DNA from: Selaginella tamariscina
Taxonomy: Eukaryota; Streptophyta; Lycopodiopsida; Selaginellales; Selaginellaceae
Direction: 5' to 3'
Length of the DNA stretch: 64,000 bases
Assembly (NCBI GenBank): GCA_003024785.1
Contig: PUQB01000463.1
Location: 62,001-126,000 of the forward strand
Shown here: in pieces, positions 20,879 through 59,132 of the stretch
Position numbering within the stretch: position 1 is the stretch's first letter
Layout: each line of letters begins with the position of its first letter
Translations under genes and position numbers: made by a program
Notes under the pieces: generated by a model
Databases searched by the model: none
The model's input: the letters and a program-made list of their open reading frames with translations, nothing else
Told to the model about the DNA's origin: nothing

Positions 20879-22203
20879 CCTTTAAATACAAGTTCCTTTA
20901 TCATGTTCGAGCCCTTGGCCTTTTTGCATACAAACCCATTGGGCCACCGCTTCACGAACATCTCTTCTTGTTCGGTCACTGCTTTCACTCTTCATCCTGT
21001 AGCTTCCAGGTTTCCATGCATCCTTTGTCGCTCCGCTAGCAAGTGCAACCACATCTGTGTCCTTAATATCAATGAACAAGTTATGCAAGATGCAACACTT
21101 GCCCATATGTTCGACATCTTCTTCACAGGCATCCATTGCCTGTAGTCTAGAAACCTGAATTTCTGCTTCAGCAACCCAAATGCATTCTCCCAATCACTCT
21201 AGCCTTCTTGTGCTGGGCGTTGTATTCCTCGGTGATGGCATTTTGAACTTCACCATCTACAAAATAATTTTATCAAATGCAATGCAATATAGAAATAAAT
21301 AACTTGAAATGTACCCTTGTAAGGGGTTAATATGTGAGGAAGCAACTGGTACCCTTTATCACCAACTAGATAGGGCTTCACCTTCTGGCCCAGTATAAAA
21401 ATCTTTGGCTCCTGAAGTACTTCCCCCGTTCAATCTTCTCTTGTAGAGGGCTGTTCCTCCATACTCTCATGTGTGAACGCTTCCTGAAATAAAAACATTA
21501 AACTTCAATAAAAATAAACTTGAACTTACCTGGCCAACCGACATAAACGCTTATAAACCTTTTCCTCGCATCCACAATAGCCTGCATCACCACGGAGTAA
21601 TCTTGTTTCTTATTGAAGTAGTCAAACCCGCTTCCCTCTGGCTTCACAATCGAAAGGTGAGTGCAGTCAATGGCCCCCACAACATTTGAAGAGTAGTTTT
21701 GGTCAGAGTTTGAAACTCCTCTGTTGCTCGAGCAACCTCCTCTGCTGTTGATGGGAACTTCAACATGTACCCGAACACTTTCACAATGGCTGCACATGTG
21801 TCCACAAGAATCTCAAAAAAGGTGGACTTCCTGATCGCGTACAACTCGGTTGATGTCTTTGTGTCTGTGTTGTGGATGAGCTTGTGGAGGGTTGCTGCTA
21901 AGCGAACTCGGACCGGAATAGCATCTCTGTAGTGAGTGTTTTGACGTTGAATGACTGGGCCCAGCTGATGACAAAGGTAGTTGAAGCTCCTCTTTGACAT
22001 CATAAGTAGGTTGAACCACCGTGGGTCATCATAGTACTCGCACATGTAGATGTCAAACCAGGTGAGGTTCCTCGGCTTCACCCACCATGGCCCTGGTTCA
22101 CCATCATAACACTTGAAGTAGCTGTGAGTTGCATAAGATGCAAGTAGGACTGCTCAGCCACTTCCTCTTCCTCATCATGTAGGTCCTCCTTATCTTCGTC
22201 CAT
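20879..22203 (-). pseudogene. Harbinger-type DDE transposase (ORF1)
   Basis: Starts at ATG 22203 with an acidic N-terminus (MDEDKEDLHDEEEEV). Next come PRNLTWFDIYMCEYYDDPRW and a helix-turn-helix-like segment. The DDE nuclease follows: first Asp in VGAIDCTHLSI (near 21660), GWPG before an intron at about 21484-21529, second Asp in YLVGDKGYQLLPHILTPYK (near 21350), a second intron at about 21255-21315, and the catalytic Glu region before AFGLLKQKFRFLDYRQWMP (near 21160). The end has CCILHNLFID, the HN motif of the family, and stops at 20879-20881. At least four frame changes separate these pieces, two in or beside single-base runs. Assignment to PIF/Harbinger is firm; activity is doubtful. Confidence 0.85.
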
Positions 22204-30735: not shown

Positions 30736-31771
30736 GAAAAGAACCAACAAGTAATTTCATTCTCCCGTGATCCTCATAACCGATGAGCTAAGGAAAGCGT
30801 CGTCAAAGACAGTCTATGTCAACGCATGCTTGGATATGGGGCGGCGCCTAAATGAGTACAGTACGAGGAGAAAACGTATGCATTATATATATGTGTGTGT
30901 GTATGTATGTATATATGGAAAAATAACCCTTCGAATATGATAATTTTTAAACCAATCGAATATTTTAAACACTACATCTCAATATAAAATAAATATGATT
31001 AAATTTGTATAATTACGAGAATTATGACCTACTTATTTTATGCTGTAATGAAATAAATAATTCATGGTAATCATTGCTAATTCCATTTAATACTTAAAAA
31101 CAAATTAAATCAATAGAAATACTTACCTGAACTCCAAGCAATATATTAAACAAAACAAACACACACAAAACAGAGAAATATATGTGCAGATTACATAATA
31201 AAAAAACAAAAGCACACTATTAATTTATTACTTATTTAGAATCAAGAAATTTATAAAGTCTTTTAACAAAAGAAAAGAAAATCAGAAAGAGGAAGAGAAA
31301 ATCAATAAACTGGTTGTCTAGAGCTGACGCGAATCAAAATTGGCAACTTTGTGAAGTTTTAAAAATAATTTTGTTTCATTTAATTATTCTTTAATGAAAA
31401 ACTTGGTAACATTATCATTATTAATAAATTAAAAGTACTCATATTAAATTGAATAATGTATAATGTTTTAATGTATTCTTAAACTAGGATATTACACATA
31501 TGTACATATATACTTAAAGCTTTCTACACACATCATAAGCATATGGAGAATATACTCCTGACGATATGCTAGAACTAGTTTAATTATTGAACTGCTTTAT
31601 TTAATTAAACTAAGCTTTATCAAATGGTTAATTTGCTGCACTTAAAAACAGACCCAACATACACGTGATCCTCACAACCGATGAGCCGTTCTATTCAACG
31701 TCGTTCAAAGTTGATCACATAGTCAAACACAGTCCGTATCAGTGCCTAATCATTACAGTACTGAACAATAA

Positions 31772-33856: not shown

Positions 33857-34269
33857 TCATCCCCTCCTCTCGGAAAGGGTGTAAGTTGGTTAGGGTTCTC
33901 TTGTAGACGGGCCCGGATCTGGAGGAACATCAGGAGGAGGCACTGGTGGATCTGTAGGCGGCACAACTTGTTCCCGTTGCACAAAATGCTTCAACCGTTG
34001 TACATGTACAATCTCCGGAGGATCGGGTTGAATGTCGTGCCGAACCTCATAAACCTGTGGCCCTACTTGCCGTAGCACTCGATACGGTCCTTTCCACTGA
34101 GGAAGGAGACTCTTAGCTAAACCACGTACCGTAAGCTTGGGAAAACGAACCAACACCAGTTCATCAACCTTGTACTCCGCAGGAGGACGATGATGCGAGT
34201 TGTAGCGTTGTTGTTGTCCTACTTGTACGCGGCCCAAGTGTTCTGCTGACTCCGCACGAACCAATGGAA

Positions 34270-35130
34270 GAATGCTCTCAGATACCGATCCCATGACCTA
34301 GCATCAGCAGCTCGCGGTAACCGAGAAGGCAAACCCAACTCCGTTGGCAACACCGGGTCATGACCATACAAAGCTTATATGGGGAAGTACCAATGGAACT
34401 TTGAACTCCAGTGACATAAGCATATCGGAGAGACGGCAGATAACCATCCCAATCTGAATGTTGAAAGTTCACATACTTCGCGATCATCCCCTTGAAGGTT
34501 CTGACCCGTTCCACTAAACCATCTGTCTGAGGATGATAAGCACTTGTGAAAGTGTGGCGTATCCCTAGTCGAGATGTCAAAACATGAAATGCCTCAGCCA
34601 TAAATGCAGGACCATTATCCGAGAGAATTCGCTCCGGACAAGAATGCTGAAACACGACCCGATTCAGGAGAAACTGACCAACAGCAGAAGCAGTCGCACT
34701 AGCAAGAGCACCAACTTCTACCCAACGAGTTAGGTAATCAGAAGCAATAATAACGTACTCGTTACCAGCAGTTGACCGCGGAAAAGGTCCCATCAAATCA
34801 AATGCCACCAATTCAAACGGACGAGAAACTGCAATTGACTCCAACCGTCCTTCCGAAGCACATGGGGGAGTATTGCGAGCTTGGCACCACACACAGTACG
34901 CACATACCGAATCACATCTCCTCGCAACTCCGGCCAATAGAAAGATCTGCGCAGCTTCTCCATCACCCGACGATGTCCCATGTGCCCGCCAAGAATAGGA
35001 GAGTCATGGTAAGCATGGAGGAAGCGTGGAATGAAGATTGAAGGCACCACCAACCGCAAAGGATCATCTGGATCAGTCCCCACAAAATAAAGAAGGTCAT
35101 CCTGAAGGCGATACTGCGAATGTAAATGCC
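34270..35130 (-). pseudogene. Gypsy integrase region (fossil)
   Basis: Holds the HHCC zinc segment (HMGHRRVMEKLRRSFYWPEL) and the integrase core with VAFDLMGPFP, ILSDNGPAF and YHPQTDGLVERV. A C-terminal tail runs on to about 33890. Confidence 0.9.
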
Positions 35131-35399
35131 TGAAAGGCAAGTCATCAGCAAGTGATGCAGGATTCTCAAACCCATCACGAAGCCTTCGAATCCACGGCTC
35201 AACCTTTTGAGCTTCCCGAACCTCATCCAAAGACGGCAAATCTAACTCTGCATTCTGCGGACACTGAATCAAGCACAGCAACTGCTGATGGTACGGAATC
35301 TTCATCCAAAAAGTCCACTGAAGCTGGAACAACTGGTTCCTCTGGGGCAACAGAAGAGAGAGAAGGTGGAAGAGGAGCCCGAGAAAGAGCATCAGCATC

Positions 35400-36680
35400 A
35401 GCCATGGAACTTCCTGGGCGATGAACAACTTCAAAGTCGTAAATTTGAAGTTTCAAGGCCCACCGAGCAGTACGCCCAATCAAATTCTTCCGCTTCAACA
35501 ACGAAGTGACTGCTGCATGATCACCTTCCAACAACGTCCGCGAACCATGCAAGTAGGCATGGAGCTTCTCAAAACCCCAAACTGCTGCTAGACACTCCTT
35601 TTCTGTCGTGGAGTAATTCACCTTTGTTTGGCTGCAATGTACGGCTGATGTACGCAATGGGATGTCTTGGCCAGGAACACTACTCTCCTGCATCAATACC
35701 CCGAGGCCGATGTCAGAAGCATCTACACGCAAGATGAAAGGACGGTGTAATCCGGGTACGCCAAAACTGGAGGAGTCGTCAACAACTCTTTGAGATCTGC
35801 AAATGCCTGCTTGCAATCCTTAACCAAACAAAAGAAGTCATTGACGATTTCAACAACGCGCGCAACGGTGCAGTACGATCTGAAAGATGATCCACAAAAC
35901 GACCCAGATATTGTACCTTGCCAAGAAAGCATTGCACATCATTCACACACTTTGGCGTAGGGAATTTAAAACTGCAACTAGTTGTATCGACTTGCAAACC
36001 TTCACGTGAAATGCGATAACCCAGATAAGTGGTGTCCTTTGATCCAAACACACACTTAGATGGCTTCAACTTCAAACCAACTTCCCGCAAGTCGATCCAA
36101 AACCTTACGTACATCACCGACATCCTCCCACGTTCCATCCGAATGGATCAAAACATCATCGATGAAATCGGCAGTCACCTCCGGCATGTCGCAAAGAACC
36201 TCATCCATCATACGTTGGAAAGTTGCTGGAGCATTGCTCAAACCGAAAGGCATCAAGAACTCGTACAGGCCAAATGGTGTTCGAAAAGCAGTCTTGGGAA
36301 TGTCCATGTCAGCCATCGGAACTTGCCAATACCAGATGCGAGATCTAACTTGGTGAACCAACGGCTCGCCCCAGTCGATCCAAAAGGTCTGCAGTATGAG
36401 GAAGTGGGTACACATCTGAGACGGTTACCTCATTTAATGGGCGATATCAATGCAGAATCGAACGCTCCCATCAGGCTTCGTCACAAGGTGAGGTTCGCAC
36501 GCCCAAGGACTTCGAGACTTCGGATAACACCCTTCTCCAACATCTCTTTGACATTCGCTCGTAAGATCTTGAGCTCCTTTGGTGATCGACGCCGAACAGG
36601 TACCTTGATTGGCCTATCTCCAGTTGGAATAGGGTGGCGTGTCGCAATTTGGCCCCAGATGACAAGTCGAAGTTGAAAAG
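35400..36680 (-). pseudogene. Gypsy reverse transcriptase and RNase H region (fossil)
   Basis: Reverse transcriptase signatures include PFGLSNAPATFQRMM and the YxDD-position segment DFIDDVLIHS. RNase H has FILRVDASDIGLGVLMQES and a tail ending VVHRPGSSMADADALSRA. Confidence 0.9.
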
Positions 36681-36899
36681 ATCAGCATACTCCTTCTTGA
36701 GTTGATTAACAACTACAGCACGACGATCATCTGATGGATCCAGAGAAGAAAAGGAAGAGCATGAAGGAAAAATGGTTGGAAACAGGGTGAGACAAAAGTG
36801 ATGAAGCAGAGGTGGAAGCAGATGGACGAAGTGGAATAGAAGTAAGAGGAATGGAAGAAAGACGAGGGAGAGTCAAACAAGGGGAGACTTTTCAAAGTC

Positions 36900-38302
36900 A
36901 CACTTGGCATGATTGCGAGTTAACCAATCCATACCAAGAATAAGGTGAAAAGCTTGACTCGGCACCACCCGAAAGATTGAAGCTCGAGCTCAATCATCCA
37001 CACGAACAACAATGTCCACTTCATCCGCGAACAAGCATGAGTATGTCCGTTGCCGTACAGAATGAAGACTGGTTCTACCGCACGACGCAAATGAAGCTGC
37101 AACGTGTAGCAACAGATTGAGAAAAGAGGACAAACTTGAACCTGTATCCACCAACACTGAAAGGAAAACAGGACAGCGTGTGATTAACGAGCTTGAAAAG
37201 TGAAAAGGATGATTTGGTGCCGAGTGAACCCCTTGATGATACTCCCGAAAGAAAGATGGAGGGTCACTAATTTATTCGCACGAGGACCCTCCTCTACTCG
37301 TGCGATTCGTCGTTTCCCGGAAGATTCACCGCATCACAACCTTCCACTGCAGCAGCACCAACCGGACGTTGTTGACGCCATGGCCTCCATCCTGGAAATG
37401 GGGACGCCAATCGGGAAACCATTGACAGCACCGATACGTGTGTCCAACCTCATCACACACCAACAACGAACTGCACGTCCATGTCCTCATCCACGGGCCC
37501 CACCTTGTGTTGGTACACGAGCAGCAACAGCCTCAACCTCCATCGGAGCAGGTCCATCCCCAATATGAAATAGAACGAGAGCACGTGAAGGCGCAAGTGG
37601 GAAAGGTGATGACTCATATCGTTGTGCCACTCAAAGCATCGTCAAGAGTCAGTGGAGCTAGTGCATGCACAAGCCCCACAAGATCTTAACAAAGTGCTGG
37701 CCACAACATACCTAACTTGATGCGTTCCGACATGTTAGGTGGAGCTAGTGCATGCAAAGCCCCACAAATCTTGACGAAGTGCTGGCCACAACATACCTAA
37801 CTTGATGCGTTCCGACATATTAGGTTCTGCACGTAGCAAAAGGCTTCAAAAACGAACACCAAACTGCATCACTGACTTAGATGGTTCCTGACAAATACGA
37901 TGCAACTGTTGAAAAGCATCATCATAGTCGTTTGCATGCCCAAATGCACATTTGAAGATCTCTGAAAGAATTCCAATCTCCACGAGTCACAACGTCCAAA
38001 CCATTGTACCACTGCAACGCCGTCCCTTGAAGACAAGTAGGAAACTCGCGCAAACACTGAGCATCATTCCATGAATGATTGTGGCAACCACAAAAGTGGT
38101 CAAACCAATGGTACACATCATTTTCAGGATTTCCATGAAAGAAATCTGGCCAGACACAGGGGTTTGCAACATGAGTAGGAGTACTCTGGACCGTGAATGC
38201 TGCCATCAACTGAGAATGATTGTTCAATTGCATACGCATGGCATTCAACAACTGCATGAGTAATTGCTCCACATACAAGGGATTTACTTGTTGTGGATCC
38301 AT
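36900..38302 (-). pseudogene. Gypsy gag and protease region (fossil)
   Basis: Gag starts MDPQQVNPLYVEQLL and has the retrotransposon-gag core FFHGNPENDVYHWFDHF. A protease active-site motif VDTGSS is near 37140. A tandem duplication of about 88 bases lies at 37650-37826. Confidence 0.8.
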
Positions 38303-38447
38303 GGACGAAGAAAAGACAGAATCTACAAGAAAGGAATAGATTTAAACAATGGAAAAGCTAAACTTAAGAAAATAAAGAAAATTAATAAAAAGACACAAAT
38401 CCAAGCACTCCGTAGAGATAATTAGAAGTGCCCCTCACTTCCACCAA

Positions 38448-44495: not shown

Positions 44496-45295
44496 GATTA
44501 CTAGAAAAGATCCAACAAGTAATTTCATTATCCCGTGATCCTCATAACCGATGAGCTAAGAAAAACGTCGGTTAAAGACAGTCTATGTCAACGCATGCTT
44601 GGATATGGGGCGGCGCCTAAATGAGTACAGTACGAGGAGAAAACGTATGCATTATATATATGTGTGTGTGTATGTATGTATATATATGGAAAAATAACCC
44701 TCGAATATGATAAATTTTTAAACCAATCGAATATTTTAAACACTACATCTCAATATCAAATAAATATGATTAAATTTGTATAATTACGAGAATTATGACC
44801 TACTTATTTATATGCTGTAATGAAATAAATAATTCATGGTAATCATTGCTAATTCCATTTAATACTTAAAAACAAATTAAATCAATAGAAATACTTACCT
44901 GAACTTTAAGCATATATAGTTAAACAAAATAAACACACACAAAACAGAGAAATATATGTGCACATTACGTAACCAAAAAAAACAAAAGCACACTATTAAT
45001 TTATTACTTATTGAGAATCAAGAAATTTATAAAGTCTCTTAACAAAAAAAAGAAAATCAGAAAGAGGAGAGAAAATCAATAAACTGGTTGTCTAGAGCGG
45101 ACGCGACTCAAAATTGGCAACTTTGTGAAGTTTTAAAAATAATTTTGTTTCATTTAATTATTCTTTAATGAAAAACTTGGTAACATTATCATTATTAATA
45201 AATTAAAAGTACTCATATTAAATTGAATAATGTATAATGTTTTAATGTATTCTTAAACTAGGATATTACACATATGTACATATACTTAAAGCTTT

Positions 45296-45430
45296 GGGTT
45301 TGACATTTCCTCGAGCGCAGTTTGCCGAGCGTACGGATTTCCATCGTATCAGAATATTCCATTCCGTAAGAATATTCGTTTTCGTATAAAGAATATTCTG
45401 GTGCGGCGGGTGGGCAATCATGGCGGCACG
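45296..45430. repeat. Left terminal region of the MULE-like element
   Basis: Contains TCGAGCGCAG (about 45311) shared in inverse with the right end, and three GAATATTC palindromes at 45352, 45370 and 45391, spaced about 20 bases. Also CGTACGGA and CCGTAAG words echoed at the right end. Confidence 0.75.
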
Positions 45431-45564
45431 GTAATGGTGTCAAAGTTTCACAAATTTGGGGGTTAATCTGACATATATATTTATATATTTTATTTATATT
45501 TATGTTTTTATTTTTTTAATATTTATATTTATAACTATAATTATATTTTTATATAAATACCGCA

Positions 45565-48500
45565 TCAAACTAAATAAAAATTACAATAAAAACATAACTC
45601 AATCATGAAGATCGTTTCCACTAGCCAGTGACTCGTCGTTAATGATGCATTGTTACGGTGTCGTGAACGTTTCTCCAAAATCTGTCTGTAGTAAACTTCG
45701 AACTCTTCAACCATTTTCTTTGCCATCTGATTAGCGTAGTCTGGTAGAACAATACTAAAAACATATTAAAGTTTAAAAACCAAAAGAAATGATAAAAAAT
45801 CTCACTCATCATTTGATGACTCGTATGATCTCTCTTCTGCTGACTCATCTGATGACTCGTCGTTGTGCCCACAGACTTCTCCGTAACAACATCCTCGTCG
45901 TTTCGAGAAGGCGGATCTTGGTCTCCATCGTTGTCGCTAGCCAAAGGCAAATCCTGTGCTTCTGTTTCCATGGTTCTCTTCCACTCATCAAAAGGAGTAA
46001 TCATAGAAACGACTTGATCATCCCACCACCTTCAGCTGCTGTAACACTTGGAATGACCTTCCTGAAGACATCTCTGGCTGCTAAAACCAGATCCTTGTTG
46101 ATGTCGATTCCATAACCATGTCTCCCTGTGTGAAAAGTTGCAAGAATACTAGCACCGATTCCCACTGTTAGATCCACGACAGTTCCACTAGGCTTTGTGA
46201 GCTTCTCCACTAGCATCACAAACAACTTGGGAGATTTCGGGCCAATTGAAATCCTAAAAGTTACATGAGAATAACAACAACATTATACCATGGGAGCTGG
46301 AAATCTTCTGGCTCATCAAAAAGAAGAGTGTAGCGAGTGTCCAAGATCTCCTTGTTCTTGACAACCCTAGAGTAGGGGGAACCAAAAATACACATGGCAA
46401 TGATGCTTTCCTGAAAAAAACAAACATTAAAAAATGACATTCTCAAAAAGAAGAATTACCTTTCTAGAGAACGGTATCCCATGACCTTGTTGTGTGCACA
46501 TAACTCATCTGTAGAAACTTTAGCTTGCAAGTTTCTGCAGTGTTCTTCAAAGCTGGAACATCATCCGGTAGCAAAACACTACCACATGGCCAGCTCTATC
46601 TAATATCCCGAAAGCAAGGTTCCCAAGTTCTCAGCAAAGAATCCGAGAACTTCGTGTATTGATCCCACCATCCCGCCTGCCTCAGCAACGCATCCGGTAG
46701 GCGGGTCGATGACAACGAGATCAACAGCTCCCTGGATGCATTTTGGTGGAGGCTTCGCACCAAACACATGAATAGTCCAACTTGACTTGTGACTCACGAT
46801 CCAATCCTCAAGCTCCTTCAATCCTGACGGAAAAGGCCTTCGGCTTTGAAGTACTGGACTGCAAGGTTCTCTGAATCTGCATGAATGATTTCCCAGCTTC
46901 CATTTCCCTTCTCAGGCATCACCATCCTCAACATATCATCTTCTTCCAATCCAGCCGAGATGAAGGATGGGGCTGAAGAAGAAGCTGTCCCTTGCTGACC
47001 TTGCTCGCCGATCTAGCATACCTGATATCCATCTTCACATGGAGCTTCCTTGCAGCACTGTCGTTCTTCCATAATAGCTCTCGCCGATCCTTGTGTATCT
47101 TATAGCTGGCCATCTCCCATTCGGGACAGTCACCAGGAAGGAAATCCAGCCAGAAAGGACAGTGTTCCACTTCGTAATCACTGATATCACGTAACAACCG
47201 GCTCCACATGCTAGAATCCTTGGTAACATCCATCCACTCTTTGAAATCTTCAGGGAGTGCATCGTTTTTCCATTTTAAAAACCTGTAAAAATAGATAAAA
47301 ATCTGTAAAGAAACAAAAAAAAAGACTTGCCTGAATGCCATTCTTTTTGCAGATTTTTCCAGCTCAAATAGTCGAGAAGGTGGAATTGTCGCACCGAACT
47401 CCTTGTTCTCGAGCATGTTCTGGTACATATCCAACTTAATTTCATTGTGCATCTTCGTATACCATGCCATGAACTCCTCTACATGCTCGACCAAAAGCTC
47501 TTTAGCTGCCTCGCGACCTGGCACGATAAAACGAATAAAAATGAAAAATATAAATATTAAATTACCTGGAACCAGTAAGTAAAGATGTGCAAAAACTTGA
47601 TGAAGTCCTTGTCAGGCCAGCCGGTGACACCTTCCTTCTTGTCTTTCTCCGTCATGTTCACCAGCTTCTCAAGAACGCCACGTTCTTGAATGTGCACAAG
47701 CTTCCCAAGGATATCAACCTTGACGTTGGAAGGAAGCTGGGACTTCGCGAGCATTTGAAGCTTCTCCAGAGTTATTTGCTTCGTTGATGGTTTGATAGTG
47801 ATATCTGTGATCGCCTTGAACCAATCTTCGCCGACCGCCGGATCAGCAATGGTGAGGAATTTGTTCATCCGAACTGTGAATGTCTTGTAAACGCTGGAGA
47901 GGATCTGAGATTCTGTCTGGTTTGGTTTTCTGTTCGCAAGTTTTGTAGCGATTTGTCGCTTCAGTTGATTCTGCAAAAGAAACCGAAAATCAAAAAACAA
48001 TCAAAAGAAGAAGAAAAGATTACCTCCCAAAAAATCTTCACCAATGTCGTCTTTGGATACTCGTACCAAACGTCTTCTTTTCTGTTCGATCTCCACACTT
48101 CCACAGCTTTTCTATCTTCCTCCGGCATCCCGCGAAGAACATGATCGGTAGAAAGATCTGCAGACTTCACACAACAATTCCGCAAGAACTGCAAGGTGTG
48201 AATGATTGTTGTAGGAACCACACGAGCAGTTGCTCTGCAAAACAAAACAACATTTATTTAGTATTTAAATAATGAAACAAACAAGTCACTTACTCATTCA
48301 ACCGATTGCAAGCAGCGATTAGTCTCTTCTCCTCTTGCACTGTGGATGCTATGAGTGTTGCACGTACACGCAAAGTCCATTTCAAACCTGGCTCTTCAGC
48401 AAGCAAAGTGTTCAAAGCAACCCGACGATGATTCCCATCCCACACCAGAAACTTTGCATCTTTCAGAAATCGATACCACGCAGAAAATGCTGGCTTATGC

Positions 48501-49210
48501 AAATCCGCTTCAAACTCTCTATCGACCTGTGCTTCTGACTCATTCCAGCTTCGGCGTTCGTCTGCACTCAGCTGTGGTCCGAAAGATAAGGTGAACACTG
48601 ACGTCTCCTGGTAAAATCCTTCAGCTCTAATCCATCCAACAAGGTCTTTCACGCCGTCCTTAGTGACATTCCTCAAACGTTGGTGTGGGAGCAACCTGTG
48701 AACCGGGATACGCGGAGGCTCACCAAGCTCAACTGGAACGTAGTGGTCTCGTCCTTGTAGCGATGTGTCAATATCCGTGTCATACCGAATAACAAGATCC
48801 CGAAGAAGCTTGGATGGAGCCTCAAGTGTCAGCCGCTCCGGAATTGCATATGATTCGGCAACATCCTCAGGAGCATCCAGTTTCCTCTTCTTATTGAACA
48901 TTTTACTACCAAGATCAATGTCCGGTACTTCCTCTGCATTACCGTGTTCTGCAGAGCTTCCTGCGATCTCCCTATTTCTAGGCATCCATTCACTCACCAC
49001 AGCATGTTCATCAATGACTTGCGAACTATCCACAGGTTCATTGTTCGTCGGCATCATCTCTTCGTGTTGCAGTTGTTGCTTGGCGCCTCGGCCTCCTTTC
49101 TTGCCACGAGGTTTTGGAGCCATATCTGCAAGAGCTTCTTGGACGATATGTTCCTGAAGTGTCAAAGTCTTGTATTTATCTCGCAGTCTCTTACTCTGCC
49201 TTTGCCTCAT
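45565..49210 (-). CDS. ParB-like domain fused to N6/N4-type DNA methyltransferase, transposon-borne
   Basis: Exons 5' to 3': 49210-48294, 48234-48024, 47970-47566, 47517-47331, 47282-46460, 46410-46289, 46253-45806, 45740-45565 (about 1,000 residues). Residues 33-44 and 107-110 are Lys/Arg-rich, probable nuclear signals. Residues 168-300 resemble a ParB/sulfiredoxin-like domain: PVHRLLPHQRLRNV and the hallmark DGNHRR at 258-263. A long helical linker follows. The methyltransferase has motif IV VDLVVIDPPTG (near 46700) before motif I VVDLTVGIGAS (near 46160) and GYGIDINKD, the permuted order of the N6_N4_Mtase family. PYSRVVKNKEI and KPSGTVVDL fit as well. Intron 4 appears GC-AG. Six or seven one-base frame changes, mostly short homopolymers, interrupt the exons and may be sequence errors. 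The target base is unknown. DPPT replaces the usual DPPY/F/W. Confidence 0.8.
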
Positions 49211-49535
49211 TCTGCAATTACAACAACTGATAAGAGTGTGTGTGTGAGTTGTTTTAATTTATGGACACACATTTACTATATATGTATACCTATCAATATA
49301 TATAGACACACACGCACACACACATATTTATACATGTGTAATGTTGTTTGTGTGTGTGCTCACTATATAATGTTCCTTGTGTATGTGTGTAATGTTGCTT
49401 ATGTGTGTGTGTGTGCAATGTTGTTTGTGTTTTGTGATGTGTCTGTGTGAGAGAATATGGGTATATTCATATCTCTTCACATGTATATACAGACGAAAAA
49501 GCATCATCTCATATATACAAGTCTTAATTCATATA

Positions 49536-49573
<38 letters not shown>

Positions 49574-50647
49574 TCTTTTTAAGTATGTATTTAAATATAT
49601 ATATTTATATATACACACACATGTATACAAGTCTAATGTTGTATAATCATAATGTGGTACGTGTGTAAAATGTTATTTATGTGTGTGCGCAACAAACAAA
49701 CAAAAACAACACACACACACACACACACGGATTTTCCTGCCCAATTGGGCAGGAAATCCTGCCGCCAGATGGTGCGGCCGCCGCACCATCCAGGCGGCAG
49801 AAATTCTGCCCAATTGGCAGGAAATGTGTGTGTGTGTGAGTGTGTTTGCCGAAATCGGCAATAACTCATGCGTCGGAGGTGTGTGTGTGTGCACACGCGC
49901 GTGCGTTTGTGAATAGAGAAATCCTACTGAATTTGCACATACATGCACAGAAATTACTATACACATATATAAGATTTTACCTGTAGCCATGTCGCCGTGA
50001 CGCTCACACTAGCCTCTTGTCGCCGCAAATGGAGAAAAGACAAAAAAAAGAACAAAAGTGCCCTCTCTCAACAATGGAGAATGGAGAAGAAGAATGGGCA
50101 GCCCTAAACCTTTACCCTAAAATCTAACACTTAACCCTTTGACCCTTAACTATAAAACTGTGTTTAATCAAACCATACAACAGTATATACAATACTTGCG
50201 ATAAATAACGTATATATAAAAGGATACAAATACAAACACATATTTAAGTAAAAATTTGTATGTTAAAAAAACATATTATTATATAATTAAATAAATATTC
50301 GTGTAAAAATATGTATTTATAATGTCTACATTAGATAAAATACTGGATCAAATAACTATATAATTATAATAAATAAATTAACAGAATATAAACAAGTCAT
50401 AAATAAATATGTCAGATGAATGTAGATTAGACACACATTTATTTAAAAGACAATAAAGATTGCTCTATCTCTACGTGAAGTGCTATACTATATTAGCATC
50501 TAAGATCTATACGTTTCCTTGAATTAAATATTCGCCCACGTTGAGTCATGATTGTGAATTTTTGAAATGGTAATATCCGATATTTACCAAAAGATGATTA
50601 AGTAATGCTGTTGTTTTTCTGTCACGTTTGTGGTAACTGCTTGCAAA
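49211..50647. promoter_or_regulatory. Divergent promoter region between methyltransferase and transposase genes
   Basis: The two start codons face away from each other across 1.4 kb. The side near 49211-49990 is rich in TG/CA and TA microsatellites and holds a large hairpin. A possible 5' exon of the methyltransferase lies near 49990-50040 on the minus strand. It ends ATGGCTACAG before a GT donor at about 49980 and would join the acceptor just before 49211. The spliced ATG would be a short upstream frame, so that exon is probably leader. No TATA box is asserted. Confidence 0.5.
49709..49845. repeat. Large inverted repeat (hairpin) between the two transposon genes
   Basis: (CA)n then TTTCCTGCCCAATTGGGCAG, and further CCTGCCGCCAGATGGTGCGG, meet the inverse sequence CCGCACCATCCAGGCGGCAG, TCTGCCCAATTGGCAGGAAA and (TG)n. 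Arms are about 65 bases with few mismatches, centred near 49779. The inner GCCCAATTGGGC is itself palindromic. Candidates are a nested foldback MITE, a cruciform regulator, or a small-RNA source. Confidence 0.85.
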
Positions 50648-53600
50648 ATGGCCAGGATTGTTTACGGCAATTTGGATCACGATGTTCCTGTGATAGATGG
50701 TGTTGGAATCATTCTTACTAATCAGATTAGAACGTTCTTTGGCATTTTTGATTGGCAAAGTGTTCGTCTTTTTAAACTTCTTCATGGGCAATCTGCTTTA
50801 GAGATCGAAATAAACGAGGACCAAGATGGAGGGAAGGATAATCCAGGATATGTTTTGTTACCGGATGAAGGACCATTGTTTAAGCTTGTCGTTGCTTCTG
50901 ACTCTGAATACTCAACGTTGAAGGACCTTTTCACTTCTAATACCTGCAAAAAGGGAAGAATTCTTATCGAGGGTTCCACGATCATTCATACAAATGAATT
51001 GCCTGTTGCGTATGATGGGGATGTCATTTTTGAGCTCCCTCCTTCCGAATACAAATACAAAGGAATGAATCGGAAAGAGGATGGACATACCTGGACAGCA
51101 GGAACGACCAGCAACTGGAATTTTCAAGCGAGGGTGTCCAGGAGCAAATGTGTTGGGAGCCTTTGCTGTATCAACCCGGACTGCCCTGCTTCTAAGGCAG
51201 GATTTCCGAACTGCACTAAATGGAAAGGATGTATTGTTTCCCCACCTTCAATCGACAAACTGGCAAAAGGATTGACATGTTTTTTCTGTAAAGAAAATCC
51301 ATTGTGCCTTGAAGTTTGTCATGCTGTGGCGTTTTGCGTTTTCCCAGACGACATAACCAAGACTAGATTGTTTATCCACCAGGGAAAACATTCACATCCA
51401 GTGGGTGATGGTGTTTCTGCATCGAACAAAGAAGAAATGCATATGGCGGTCCAGAATGCAACAGAAAGAACTCCCAGAGCTAGTCCAAGAGTCATCGAAA
51501 TGGCAGCATGTAAAGATGCTATCTTTGGTTTCCTATTAGATAATTCTGAGCCTGGAAGTTGGGATAAGCTCATGGATCATTTGCAGCCATTATCAAACAA
51601 TCGAAGGTACAATTAGAGTTTTACTTTGTGCTGAGCATTCTTTGATAATACCTTTGATGCAGAGTTCGTCAATGGGTAGCGTCCGCAAAGAGAACTGCTG
51701 CTGAAATGCCAGAGAATATTGATGGATTATTGGAGCTGAAACGAAGGTTGTCTATCCCATTCATCCACGTGATTCACTATCCTGGGATGAATTTCCGTGG
51801 TTCAGACGACCAGGCATTAGTTTTTAAGATGACGGTTTCAGGGCCAGGTTCTGGAATCGATTATGTAAGGATGTGCCAACCTCCTCTTGGCCCTTTGCAG
51901 AAGAGTTGGGTTCTACTTGATCACACACACCGTGTTGTTGATAAGTGGATCACTCTGGCATTGCATGTTTACGACCCAAAGTAAGATGTTATCTTTTTGT
52001 TGTTTGCTTAACTCTTTGATTATTTTATAGTGTGCGCCGATTATCCACCATTGCTTATGGTGACATGAAGAGACAAACGGCTGGAGCTGTGGAGAAGTTT
52101 TTTCGTGCTATGTTGGATGTCTGTTCCGAGAAGGGAATCTACAATGTGCAGTTCGCTGGGTTTATGTCCGATGAAGCAGGAGCGATCTGGCAAGCAATAG
52201 GAATGTGTTCTTTAATGGCCAAGAAATTCCTGGACGTGAACGGAGCTGTATCTTTCACTATGAACAAGCCATACAACGTGTGACAAGGAAGTGGGTCCCT
52301 CTTGAACATCAACAACAACATCTTCAACTTTTGAGATCATGGCCAACAGCCACATCAACAACTGATCGTGAAGAAATTGAAAATAATCTTTTCCGCTTTT
52401 GGAATGAAAATGTGAAGGATGTTGGAGTTATGCAGACGTGGTTTTCATGGTGGGAAAGACAGAAGAATCATATTTCAAATGTTGTTCTTGAAAGCATGCC
52501 GGAGAATGCTGCAAGGGTTGTGCCCATGACAAACCAGTCGGAGTCTGTTCACGGAAGATGGAGGAGGGCTAGAGATTCAAAATACATTTCATTGTACCAA
52601 GCTACAATCCACGACCTGACTGAATCAGTGCGACAATGTGCTCTTGTGAAGGCTTTTAGAGATGGAAGGTATAGTGGTTCCGGGCCGACTTCAGAGGAGC
52701 TCTCAGCAAGGTTCGAGAGAAGAATGTCAAATGCTAACTCAACAACACCTACAGCAAAGGTTATCATCGACTTAGTTGAAGATGTTGCTCCATCAAGCAT
52801 GCAGGATACTGCTTTTGTGGCTGCCACGAATGTTGAACATCGCACTGTGCAAAGAAATATGGGGTCAGAGGCTGAACGATCCCACCGACCGGACATCTTC
52901 TATAGTGAACAGGTTATTCCAACACAGTGTAGACGGAAGCGACGATTGGATTTTCAACTTGCAGAAGAACATGAAGAATATGTTCTGGTTGAAGAACAAG
53001 ATGTTACACCTGGACAATGGGCGATTAGAAGATGTGGTGAAAGAAGTTCTGTGAAATGTCTGGCAGGCTTTCCCTCTTCAGGAGGTCAGTGGAGTGCTTG
53101 TGACAAAAAGATCAGTCCTAGTGGTAATCGAGTGGCTGCTCCTTGTTTTTTTGGAAGGATCAATACAATGACAAAGAAACTGGTGAAGAATGCTTTCGCT
53201 CACAAATGATGTATTTTTGTCCAACAAACATGCTTTGCAGCAGACATCCAAGACCAACTATTGTTTCTCCGCCAGCTTCTACCTCGGTTTGGAAAGTTCA
53301 AGTGGGCACGAAGCTGATAGCAGTGGAGATCAATGATCTGGCAAGATCAGGTTTTATGCTAGCTGGGCTTCCTTCAGCTCATGCAGGAGTGCCAGGTTTT
53401 TCAACACCTCATGTTCCTTCAGTTCCTGTTGGAGTCACTGGATTTTCAACACCCCCTGCACAATTTCGTGGACCTCCTGTTCCTGCAAGTGGTCGTGCAA
53501 CAAGAACACCTTTAGGGATGTCTAAGAAACAACAGGTAAGTTTTGAAGCATGTTTGACGTTGGGAGCATATGTCGCAGAAGTTGACGTGGTTGATCCTCC

Positions 53601-53862
53601 AACATGCATTCGCTTCAGAGTATGTGACAACGACCATACATCTGCTTGGGTTGTCATTTGCAGCGCACCATCTTGTTCATGCTCGGAGTTCTGCAATGGT
53701 CGTCAGTGGGTGCCTTGCAAACATATGTATTTTGTTTACAAGCGTGTACTGGGAGCTGATCCTCGAGTTGTCAAGCATTTGCAACGTCGTACACTTGCAC
53801 CCCGTGAACTAAGTTCTTTATTGATGCTACCAAGGAACCTCCATCCTCCACCATCTATTTAG
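50648..53862 (+). CDS. MULE-type transposase with WRKY-GCM1-like zinc site and SWIM finger
   Basis: Moves the element by a DDE (RNase H-fold) reaction. Exons 50648-51606, 51663-51980, 52031-53862, GT-AG. ATG 50648 is the first usable start. Residues about 140-250: DGHTW, KCVGSLCCINPDCP and HQGKHSHP, resembling the WRKY-GCM1 zinc fold known in MULE transposases. DDE core: Asp in VLLDHTHRVVD (about 406), Asp in FMSDEAGAIWQAIG (about 469) followed by CIFHYEQA (the CxxH of MULEs, about 499), and Glu in MTNQSESVHGRW (about 592). The C-terminus has the SWIM finger CSCSEFCNG...PCKHMY (near 53665-53730). Two one-base frame changes, near 52200 (GG) and 53145 (T7), both in runs, interrupt an otherwise open gene. 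Family call is firm; Zisupton/KDZ elements, which also make 8-base duplications, are a less likely alternative. Confidence 0.87.
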
Positions 53863-54019
53863 TGTGTTTGGTTTTTTTCAAACAGCTTCGGTTTTATATT
53901 TGTTATAATTTTTAATATAAATTTTAATGGTAATTTTATGCTTAGCATATTTTTAAGTAATTTAACATATATTTCCTTTAAATACAAAAAAATACTACCA
54001 TATTTTGTATGCGGCCCCG

Positions 54020-54207
54020 CACTAGAATATTCTAGAATATTCTTGAAAATTTTGGAAGGTCCAATTGTGTGTACACAGTACGAAAAATTTCCGTACAGAA
54101 TATTCGAGGATATCTAGACGGAAATCGTACGGAAAAAAGAATATTCAAGAATATTCGCAAATCTTGGTCAAGCTCGTTGACCTGCGCTCGAATTTCGCCG
54201 TGCCCCT
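54020..54207. repeat. Right terminal region of the MULE-like element
   Basis: Five GAATATTC palindromes at 54025, 54035, 54098, 54139 and 54149. TGCGCTCGAA near 54183 mirrors TCGAGCGCAG of the left end. CCGTACAG and CGTACGGA repeat words of the left end. Together these look like transposase-binding arrays. Confidence 0.75.
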
Positions 54208-54452
54208 AAGCTTTCTACACATATCATAAGCATATGGAGAAATATACCTGACGATATGCTAGAACTAGTTTAATTATTGAACTGCTTTATTTAATTAAAC
54301 TAAGCTTTATCAAATGGTTAATTTGCTGCACTTAAAAACAGACCCAACATACACGTGATCATCACACCGATGAGCCGTTCTATTCAACGTCGTTCAAAGT
54401 TGATCACATAGTCAAACACAGTCCGTATCAGTGCCTAATCATTACAGTACTG

Positions 54453-56444: not shown

Positions 56445-59132
56445 ATCTGCTGCACTAGAAAAGATCCAAAAAATAATTTCATTCTCCGTCTAAAAAAATC
56501 GCCGGTCAAAGACAATCTATGTCAACGTGGATATGGGGCGGCGCCTAAATGAGTACAGTACGGGAGAAAACGAGAATTATTAAATATATGCATTATATAT
56601 ATATATATATGGAAAATAACCCTCGAATATAATAAATTCTTATACCAATCGAATATTTTAAACACTACATCTCAATATAAATTAGATATGATTAAATTTG
56701 TATAATTACGAAAATTATGACCTACTTATTTATATGTTGTAATTTATGGTAATCATTGTTAATTCCATTTCACATCTCAAATACTTAAAAACAAATTAAA
56801 TCAATATAAATACTTATCTGAACTCCAAACATATATAGTTAAACAAAATAAACACACATATTAAACAGCATTACATGATGAAAAAACAAAAACACACCAT
56901 TAATTTATTACTTATTTAGAATTGAGAAATTTATAAAGAGTTTAAAAAAAACAAAAAAAAAATTAGAAAGAAGAAGAGAAAATTAAAACAGGTTTACACG
57001 GGATAAAAAAGTAGCAACTTTGTGAAGTTTTAAAAATAATTTTGTTTCATTTTAATTATTCTTTAAATTGAAAATTAGTAACAATATATTATTAATAAAT
57101 CAAAAATACTCATATAAATTAAATAATAAAGTATAATTCTTAATGTATAAACTAGGATATTTACATACATATGCTTTCGACGCGCATCATAAGCATACGG
57201 AGAATATACTCCTGACTATGGTGGTGGTGAATATGTTATTGGTTCTAGAACTAGTTTAATTATTGAACTGCTTTATTTAATTAAACTAAGCTTTACCAAA
57301 TGATTAATCTGCTGCACTTTCTATTCAACGTCGTTCAAGTTGATCACGCAGTAACTGAACTATATATATTATATATATATTATGGTTTATACATATCATT
57401 TTCAAATGTTAATCACACTAATAATGAGAATGTTCAAAATTTGTATAGAACACATGAAAATCAATAAACACATAAATAGGTTTAATAGCATTATAATTAA
57501 TTATCATTACTCATTATTAAATTTCATCTTCACTGAGCACCCGTAGATATATACTTAAACTAATACATTATGTACATACATGTTTAAGGATGAAACATTT
57601 TTTAGTTTTATGATATAACCTCTATTACTATTTTAGAATATAGAATCTAATTGAAATATTCCCCTTTTGTAAAATCACAAATGATAAATATTATAAATAC
57701 TCTTATGGTATACATACAGTACATATATTGGAGAAGAAAAAACACAGACGTATATATATGTTAAATGTGTTTGTGAGTGTGTACTGTTTAAGTGTGTGTG
57801 TGTCTCTCTCTCTTTATATGCACACACGCACACACACACACGCACACACATATTTAAAGATCGTGGTTTTTTATGACGACGAATTTTCCTTGAATATACT
57901 ATGAATAAGTTCATAAAATAAGTATTTTGTGGAAAGTGATACTACATCTCACAACACAACAATCCTTAAGCATACAAATTTTAATTATCAATAAGCCTTG
58001 TGATTACGTTAATTATTCACATTATACATAGTTTAGTTCTTAAATATGTTGGTTTCCCATACTTTATTAATTAAAAGAAAAATTAATTATGATAATTAAT
58101 TTAATTGCATTTAGTTTTGATTTATTTGTGGATGTTGTTTACTATTTCATTCTTAATTTTATTTAATACATTATTCATTATTAATAAATCAAAAGCACTC
58201 CTTTTTAATTAATAAGGAATTTATTCATAATAGGTTTATGTTCACATACAAGCTGAACGGTCAATACCTTTAATATAAAGTAGTGAGAATAAATAAATCC
58301 TTATAAAACAAGCACCTCACTATTTAAATTTTTAAATTATACCAGTTTACATAAATGTTTAAGTAGAGATATTATACATTTATATATATACACACACATA
58401 CACATATATATTAGTGGTGTGTGTGTATATGTATTTATGTATGTATATGTGTCTGTACCTTCTGAGCATCAAGTAGGTTACCGCATTTGGCATACAAATT
58501 GACAGGTGCGCTGGCCAGCTTCGAGTGAATATCCATTCCGTACTCGAGAGAGGCCAGCTTACCGGCCTCCTTCTTGGCCAGGGCAGTACACGCCTCCAGT
58601 GCAGCAACGGACTTCCGTACAGTCAGCTGGCAGTTCTGTGACAGCACCCGGGAGTACATTTTTAAGGCCTCCTGTGGTTGTGCGTTTTCCACGTATCCAG
58701 AATAAGCGTATTCCATGCCACCACGTCTCTTTGCTCCATATGATCGAATACCTACGTAATACATAGATATGTAAATATACATGTGTCTTAGGTGTGTGTG
58801 CGTGTATATCCACAACTATACGACACATCCTTTACATCAGAACATGTACACATAAGGTATATATATGTGGTGTTTCCAATATATCAACATGTGACATGCG
58901 ACAATATAAATATTATAAATATGTCAAAATTTGTACAGTTATATAATTAAATCTCTCTCTCTCTTTCACACACACACACACACACACGCATATCAATATT
59001 ATCATTTCACAGTGATTCGTATGCTTTCACATATATATCTGTGTAGACAGTTATTTGTTTGTATATACATGTATATCGAGCTTTTTTGTAAGTATATAGC
59101 GTGTATACTACATGTGCACAACATCGTTGTAG

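Follow-up and report, generated by a model that had tools for sequence, protein, structure and literature searches.

A MULE-type DNA transposon of Selaginella tamariscina with a resident, predicted ParB-like/methyltransferase gene and palindrome clusters at both ends

Related transposons and methyltransferases

The closest described counterpart of the locus reported here is Sola1-1_Ec32 of the brown alga Ectocarpus, in which a 1104-residue ParB-like/DNA-methyltransferase protein is encoded on the strand opposite to the transposase; relatives in green and red algae are cited in the same source, and its authors suggested a self-marking role for the algal protein (PMC12477816). We analyzed a stretch of 64,000 nucleotides of the land plant Selaginella tamariscina (contig PUQB01000463.1, positions 62,001 to 126,000; hereafter the 64-kb window, whose first base is position 1) which contains a MULE-type (Mutator-like element) DNA transposon with an accessory gene resident within it. 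The predicted accessory protein resembles that of Sola1-1_Ec32 in combining a ParB-like part with a methyltransferase of the N4-cytosine/N6-adenine kind, in size (~1100 residues vs. 1104), in being encoded opposite to the transposase and in lying inside a DNA transposon, whereas the algal element has a Sola1 transposase, is 21.5 kb long and resides in a brown alga, and ours is MULE-type, 8.9 kb long and from a land plant (PMC12477816). The comparison is with the published description of the algal protein, and the ParB half of the Selaginella protein is recognizable at superfamily level only (PMC12477816). The original prediction, which was made from the DNA alone, had held the combination to be known from bacteria and phages and not from plant transposons, a statement that omits the algal transposons (PMC12477816). 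We found no description of a land-plant transposon with such a gene among the top-ranked open-licence literature, although absence is not thereby shown. A ParB-methyltransferase transposon protein is already known in algae, from which the present case is set apart by its MULE-type transposon and its land-plant host.

Other described systems resemble the Selaginella element in part. The Arabidopsis element VANDAL21 is likewise a MULE with an extra protein and a dense short motif in its non-coding parts; that protein, VANC21, binds a 9-base motif that is arrayed across non-coding regions of the element encoding it, where it reduces methylation (PMC5735166). The motif, YAGTATTAY, lies in one orientation in introns and upstream regions, whereas here an exact palindrome is found at two ends, and in the relevant passages of that paper VANC21 is not described as a methyltransferase (PMC5735166). 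DIRS and Symbiodinium retrotransposons are mobile elements with DNA methyltransferases of their own (a Dam-like N6-adenine enzyme in DIRS), but they are retrotransposons, their enzymes are Dam-like or C5 enzymes, and no ParB-like part is described in the corresponding text (PMC5890265). The N4CMT of bdelloid rotifers is a permuted N6_N4_Mtase of bacterial type that works in a eukaryote; it differs in being a host gene fused to a chromodomain, in having an SPPY motif and in marking transposons for silencing (PMC8885841). In the pertinent part of a review of giant transposons (PMC6431247), a methyltransferase is named once, for an unrelated protein motif.

The insertion and its ends

An ~8.9-kb insertion bounded by an exact 7-bp target duplication is a real structure (Table 1). 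Its left flank (45096-45295) matches positions 31322-31523 at 98.0% identity and its right flank, from 54208, matches 31517-31747 at 97.4%, both in one paralogous unit of the same window, and the overlap of the two matches is exactly the 7 bp, AAGCTTT, that are duplicated at the insertion. Other lengths for the duplication are feasible, namely 9 bp (TAAAGCTTT) if the right copy lost one A of its A-run, or 8 bp at 7/8 identity. Further flank paralogs, uninterrupted or partly aligned, occur in the window (e.g., at 18.27 kb). The filled unit has diverged from its closest empty counterpart by only 2-3%, so that the insertion probably postdates the split between these two units, an estimate of age that exchange between repeat units could blur. 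No second copy of the element was found in the window by tblastn, all other matches having an expectation value (E) of 0.14 or worse. The original prediction of two divergent genes enclosed by one set of ends with a target duplication is therefore borne out by the empty site, the duplication and the inverted core described below, with the amendment that 54206 is a better position for the right end than 54207.

The surroundings of the insertion are themselves repetitive. Positions 14000-64000 form an array of AT-rich repeat units, with copies ~13-18 kb apart and related units ~2-3 kb apart, and some copies are 95-99% identical (e.g., 31294-31510 and 45068-45284). The transposon lies within this array, as, probably, does a Gypsy element. 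These statements come from a repeat survey of the window that counted at least 60 families, of which the 20 largest were considered.

The element has terminal inverted repeats that are short and imperfect, with a 10-bp exact core, TCGAGCGCAG, at each end. The two cores are equally far from the tips and the sequence is absent from the rest of the window; when 40-nt stretches were drawn from the window in 20000 random pairs, 28 pairs reached a 10-bp match at similar offsets.

Just inside these repeats lie two clusters of the palindrome GAATATTC. It was found by an open k-mer scan and its description is hence post hoc, yet the contrast is very large all the same: eight of the nine copies in the window fall within the two 300-bp ends of the element (three left, five right), the 8.3-kb interior has none, and the ninth is at 1439, in the region of an amino-acid permease gene. 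The clusters extend from ~56 to 103 nt inside the left end and from 50 to 182 nt inside the right end, all eight end copies are preceded by A, and the two 300-bp ends contain no one-mismatch variants. When the ends were simulated 3000 times with a first-order Markov model, GAATATTC occurred on average 0.026 times and at most twice. Among palindromic 8-mers containing G or C, the set to which this count was confined (those made up solely of A and T were excluded), no other reached three copies in any 300-bp bin of the window. Palindromes of this sort are recognized by bacterial-type methyltransferases, ParB-like proteins or transposases, and in GAATATTC, newly described here, we propose a defined sequence at which either the accessory protein or the transposase may act.

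Table 1. Coordinates of the element, its ends, its genes and the empty site within the 64-kb window
Feature	Position	Strand	Remarks
Whole inserted element, ~8.9 kb	45296..54206	.	Flanks match uninterrupted paralogous site 31322-31747
Target duplication AAGCTTT, left copy	45289..45295	+	7/7 identical to right copy
Target duplication AAGCTTT, right copy	54208..54214	+	
Empty site in paralogous repeat unit, outside element	31517..31523	+	Overlap of both flank matches
Terminal inverted repeat core TCGAGCGCAG, left	45311..45320	+	
Terminal inverted repeat core TCGAGCGCAG, right	54182..54191	-	
Left GAATATTC cluster	45352..45398	.	Copies at 45352, 45370, 45391
Right GAATATTC cluster	54025..54156	.	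Copies at 54025, 54035, 54098, 54139, 54149; two pairs spaced 10 bp
Accessory gene, coding part, ~1100 residues	45595..49210	-	Exon model by eye, without transcript support
Accessory exons	49210-48294, 48234-48024, 47970-47566, 47517-47331, 47282-46460, 46410 to ~45806, last from 45754	-	
ParB/Srx-superfamily-like domain with FLVWDGNHRRVA (DGNHRR)	48294..48718	-	DndB matches here; limits approximate
Putative methyltransferase motif IV, reads DPPT	46696..46707	-	
Putative methyltransferase AdoMet-binding motif I, DLTVGIGAS...GYGIDIN	46097..46174	-	N6_N4_Mtase and phage methyltransferase profiles
MULE-type transposase gene	50648..53862	+	Exons 50648-51606, 51663-51980, 52031-53862; exon ends read from the sequence, motifs by eye

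The accessory and transposase genes

The two genes are divergent and multi-exon, and both lie between 45296 and 54206. Their introns are of the same small kind (48-59 nt for the accessory gene, 50-56 nt for the transposase gene) and have an A+T content of 66-79%. This shared style, and the position of the accessory gene wholly inside the insertion that the empty site delimits, uphold the earlier view that the methyltransferase gene is cargo and not a neighbor. We propose seven coding exons for it, or eight if an assumed 35-nt intron (46282-46248) is real; five introns are clear, with lengths of 59, 53, 48, 48 (with a GC-AG donor) and 49 nt. Between the two genes, at 49710-49848, is a GC-rich, long imperfect palindrome with 69-nt arms (71% matching) flanked by AC/GT runs; as single-stranded DNA, positions 49700-49860 fold at -72 kcal/mol (z -14 vs. 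200 shuffles). Possible explanations of this structure are a small foldback insertion or a role in the promoter region of the element.

The first accessory exon encodes lysine/arginine-rich stretches which, by eye, resemble nuclear localization signals, followed by the domain containing FLVWDGNHRRVA. For this domain the single family matched was DndB, with E 0.0024 (Pfam, exon 1), 0.0051 (Pfam, whole protein), 0.039 (NCBIfam), and 0.0021 (PADLOC). DndB belongs to the ParB superfamily (PMC10853773). The ParB profile itself, PF02195, was not listed for the accessory protein at an E limit of 10, a limit at which the filters of HMMER still discard most matches above E ~0.1. The ParB protein of phage N15 gave no real alignment with the ParB-like part, and a single-sequence AlphaFold model of the exon (pLDDT 37) was too poor for a fold search. 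The order of elements in that same poor model, strand-helix-strand...strand-helix-strand-helix, is compatible with the order in ParB. Exon 1 yielded three pattern matches in viral contigs, of which none was confirmed, no tblastn match in phages (E up to 1) or plasmids (E up to 10), and one chain (E 0.78) in a sequence search of the PDB. Overall we assign the N-terminal domain, weakly, as ParB-like at the superfamily level.

In the C-terminal third of the protein a DPP motif lies upstream of a motif that would bind S-adenosylmethionine (AdoMet), which is the permuted (beta) order. Three profiles point to a methyltransferase: Pfam N6_N4_Mtase (PF01555), matched in two stretches with E 3.7e-5 and 24.2 bits, below the cut-off of 26.7; PHROG 3008, DNA methyltransferase (E 8e-5); and the PADLOC orphan methyltransferase (E 6.4e-5). 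By tblastn the methyltransferase part weakly matched 44 phage records; among the 20 best (E 0.07-0.9), 18 are annotated as methyltransferase or methylase and two have no annotation. Alignment with hhalign to six phage methyltransferases gave a probability of 95.9% and E 6.2e-9 over 75 columns, all of them after motif IV (motifs X and I), and as these six proteins were chosen from the matches of this same query the result is support and not an independent test. A PDB sequence search with the methyltransferase part listed six chains (E 0.52-1.8); three of them bear the name methyltransferase, and the top-ranking chain, 1ve3, is a hypothetical protein. The original prediction of a fusion of a ParB-like domain to a methyltransferase thus fared well in its second half, where the N6_N4_Mtase profile was matched (if below the Pfam cut-off), and less well in its first, for which DndB stands in place of PF02195.

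Comparison with phage and bacterial beta-type amino-methyltransferases, represented by the same six phage proteins, reveals the same order, with motif IV before motifs X and I, and an AdoMet loop of G-x-G followed by conserved R and G. The Selaginella protein differs in having GPKSP where these enzymes have HPT or HPC, PPT where they have PPY or IPY, and ~700 additional N-terminal residues. Its presumptive catalytic motif thus reads DPPT instead of DPPY and departs from the pattern [D/S/N]PP[Y/F/W]; phmmer set DPPT opposite motif IV of MboIIA (1g60), with a negligible score of -1.4. We believe that the assignment to the permuted amino-methyltransferase fold (of the adenine N6 or cytosine N4 kind) stands as a prediction from sequence, and that a working enzyme is not established in this copy because motif IV reads DPPT.

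The transposase gene, with introns of 56 and 50 nt, encodes an N-terminal cysteine-containing part, then, in order, DHTH, SDEAGA, CIFH, and TNQSES, and near the C-terminus a SWIM-like CSC...CKH, all recognized by eye. The first four follow the order of MULE catalytic residues, and we take the last to be a putative SWIM-type zinc finger. Searches with the read-through protein found no MULE or other transposase family in Pfam at an E limit of 10, the sole listing being a meaningless one (LST1, E 0.15); NCBIfam and PHROGs returned no family for two pieces of the transposase, and a PDB sequence search with one piece returned no chain. What had been called an ordinary MULE transposase accordingly keeps its MULE-style motifs and lacks a MULE profile, and as there is no profile match we use the term MULE-type and do not claim membership of the superfamily. 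The target duplications of MULEs are 8-11 bp (PMC6446971); the duplication here is of 7 bp if exact, of 8 bp with seven identical, or of 9 bp if one A is missing. MULE terminal repeats are typically long, and some MULEs have none (PMC6446971).

Neither protein found homologs in the protein collection that we searched. For the read-through accessory protein there were none at E up to 0.01 (7344 word-sharing candidates), for residues 160-350, the ParB-like part, none at E up to 10 (664 candidates), and for the read-through transposase none at E up to 0.01 (4828 word-sharing candidates). The lack of accessory homologs may reflect the content of the collection, because even the transposase matched nothing there.

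Both reading frames are broken in this copy. The accessory gene shows 8-11 frame changes, beginning at the end of exon 3 and varying in number with the cost assigned to a change, and the transposase gene shows two. Under the final exon model neither gene required a nonsense codon at any of four frame-change costs. With earlier exon edges the accessory gene took eight or six frame changes and the transposase gene five or four, the higher cost adding two and one nonsense codons, respectively. It is feasible that some of the accessory breaks are wrong exon edges. An indel-prone assembly is also plausible, because a Gypsy pol stretch nearby has frame changes as well (six, with one stop at its very edge), and the permease gene appears, by eye, to have one. 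Assembly indel errors account for the breaks no less well than decay would, without this being proof, and we call the element neither dead nor alive.

Elsewhere in the window, an amino-acid permease, a fragment of a PPR protein and a subtilase were recognized by eye in the translations, a gene content that fits a land plant; the short introns and the PPR sequence are reminiscent of a lycophyte such as Selaginella. The permease-like gene occupies positions 1-1780, has short introns and, by eye, an apparent frame change in the exon near 560; directly after it, at 1770-2575, are five tandem copies of a unit of ~160 nt. An open reading frame at 21644-22153 (minus strand) resembles, by eye, a Harbinger-type transposase, the coding region of a Gypsy-type long terminal repeat retrotransposon, split into overlapping frames, lies at 33890-38341 (minus strand), and the PPR-like fragment is at 58438-58815 (minus strand).

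Possible roles of the accessory protein and the palindromes

Most economically, the GAATATTC palindromes would be used by the accessory protein or by the transposase, and the accessory protein would mark or occupy the ends. Our preferred reading, which we put forward tentatively, is that the accessory protein of this MULE-type transposon binds GAATATTC and marks or occupies both ends; as part of that tentative reading, the element would be a two-gene DNA transposon of the cut-and-paste kind that inserted rather recently. The accessory protein would move to the nucleus, and its ParB-like part, or the recognition part of the methyltransferase itself, may bind the clusters at both ends, which would then be marked, perhaps by methylation, or simply occupied. 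Such marking or occupancy would control when the transposase may use the ends and could also shield them from silencing by the host. Among MULEs, VANC21 offers a precedent for an accessory protein guided by a motif (PMC5735166).

Several of the observations above weigh against this. The likeness of the N-terminal domain to ParB is weak, conservation of the accessory protein cannot be shown without homologs in the protein collection, and the DPPT motif together with the frame breaks in both genes counts against an active enzyme in this copy. Furthermore, GAATATTC could serve the transposase alone, the accessory protein acting elsewhere, for instance on newly synthesized DNA or the chromatin of the host. 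We consider this somewhat unlikely. The clusters adjoin the two ends on the inner side, at the place of action of a transposase, much as the subterminal repeats of other transposons do, and the two pairs spaced 10 bp apart would suit repeated binding on one face of the helix; however, a palindrome is a usual target of a bacterial-type methyltransferase, and nothing here separates the two proteins.

We rate as unlikely a complete loss of catalysis by the methyltransferase that would leave the accessory protein to counter silencing through sequence-specific binding, as VANC of VANDAL elements does. That bacterial N6-adenine enzymes carry DPPY and most bacterial N4-cytosine enzymes SPPY (PMC8885841), where the Selaginella protein has DPPT, is consistent with such a loss, and VANC is a precedent for a binder encoded by a MULE (PMC5735166). 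Conversely, the AdoMet-binding motif is recognized by several profiles, and DPPT was read from a stretch between frame breaks in what appears to be an indel-prone assembly. We think it very unlikely that the accessory gene is a passenger without a role in transposition, captured as Pack-MULEs capture host genes: MULEs do acquire additional genes (PMC6446971), and the accessory gene has more frame breaks than the transposase gene, but the same architecture and size recur in an algal transposon of another superfamily (PMC12477816), and the gene needs no nonsense codons in the final model (two, at the highest cost, in the earlier one). That the palindromes are heat-shock elements (GAAnnTTC) of a stress-responsive transposon we judge least likely, and highly improbable, for while perfect GAAnnTTCnnGAAnnTTC runs of the heat-shock-element pattern occur at 54025-54042 and 54139-54156 and nowhere else in the window, the central TA is kept in 8/8 end copies vs. 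1/34 of the other GAAnnTTC copies, and the palindromes lie downstream of both genes, with no GAAnnTTC in the shared promoter region (49211-50650).

Returning to the preferred reading, in which the accessory protein marks or occupies the ends, the presence of GAATATTC clusters at both of them makes self-methylation plausible. Its most specific form, that a land-plant transposon marks itself by means of its own ParB-methyltransferase, which would read GAATATTC at both ends and methylate adenine there, we regard as doubtful. Were it true, the ends would be labeled with a bacterial-type mark that is not used by the cytosine-based silencing of the host. Dam sites tie transposition to replication in IS10, and a mark at the ends of the Selaginella element could do likewise. 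It would also bear on N6-methyladenine in plant DNA, the presence of which is debated, as a mark confined to the ends of one family would be easy to detect or exclude in long reads.

If the element does mark its own ends in this way, the algal observation (PMC12477816) would extend to land plants and to another type of transposase, suggesting repeated recruitment; taken with the algal Sola1 case, ParB-methyltransferase modules would then emerge as a means of control used recurrently, and across superfamilies, by the DNA transposons of eukaryotes. Should the module act on its own ends, this would be a eukaryotic transposon that controls itself through a bacterial-type DNA mark, with an exact 8-bp target at which to test it.

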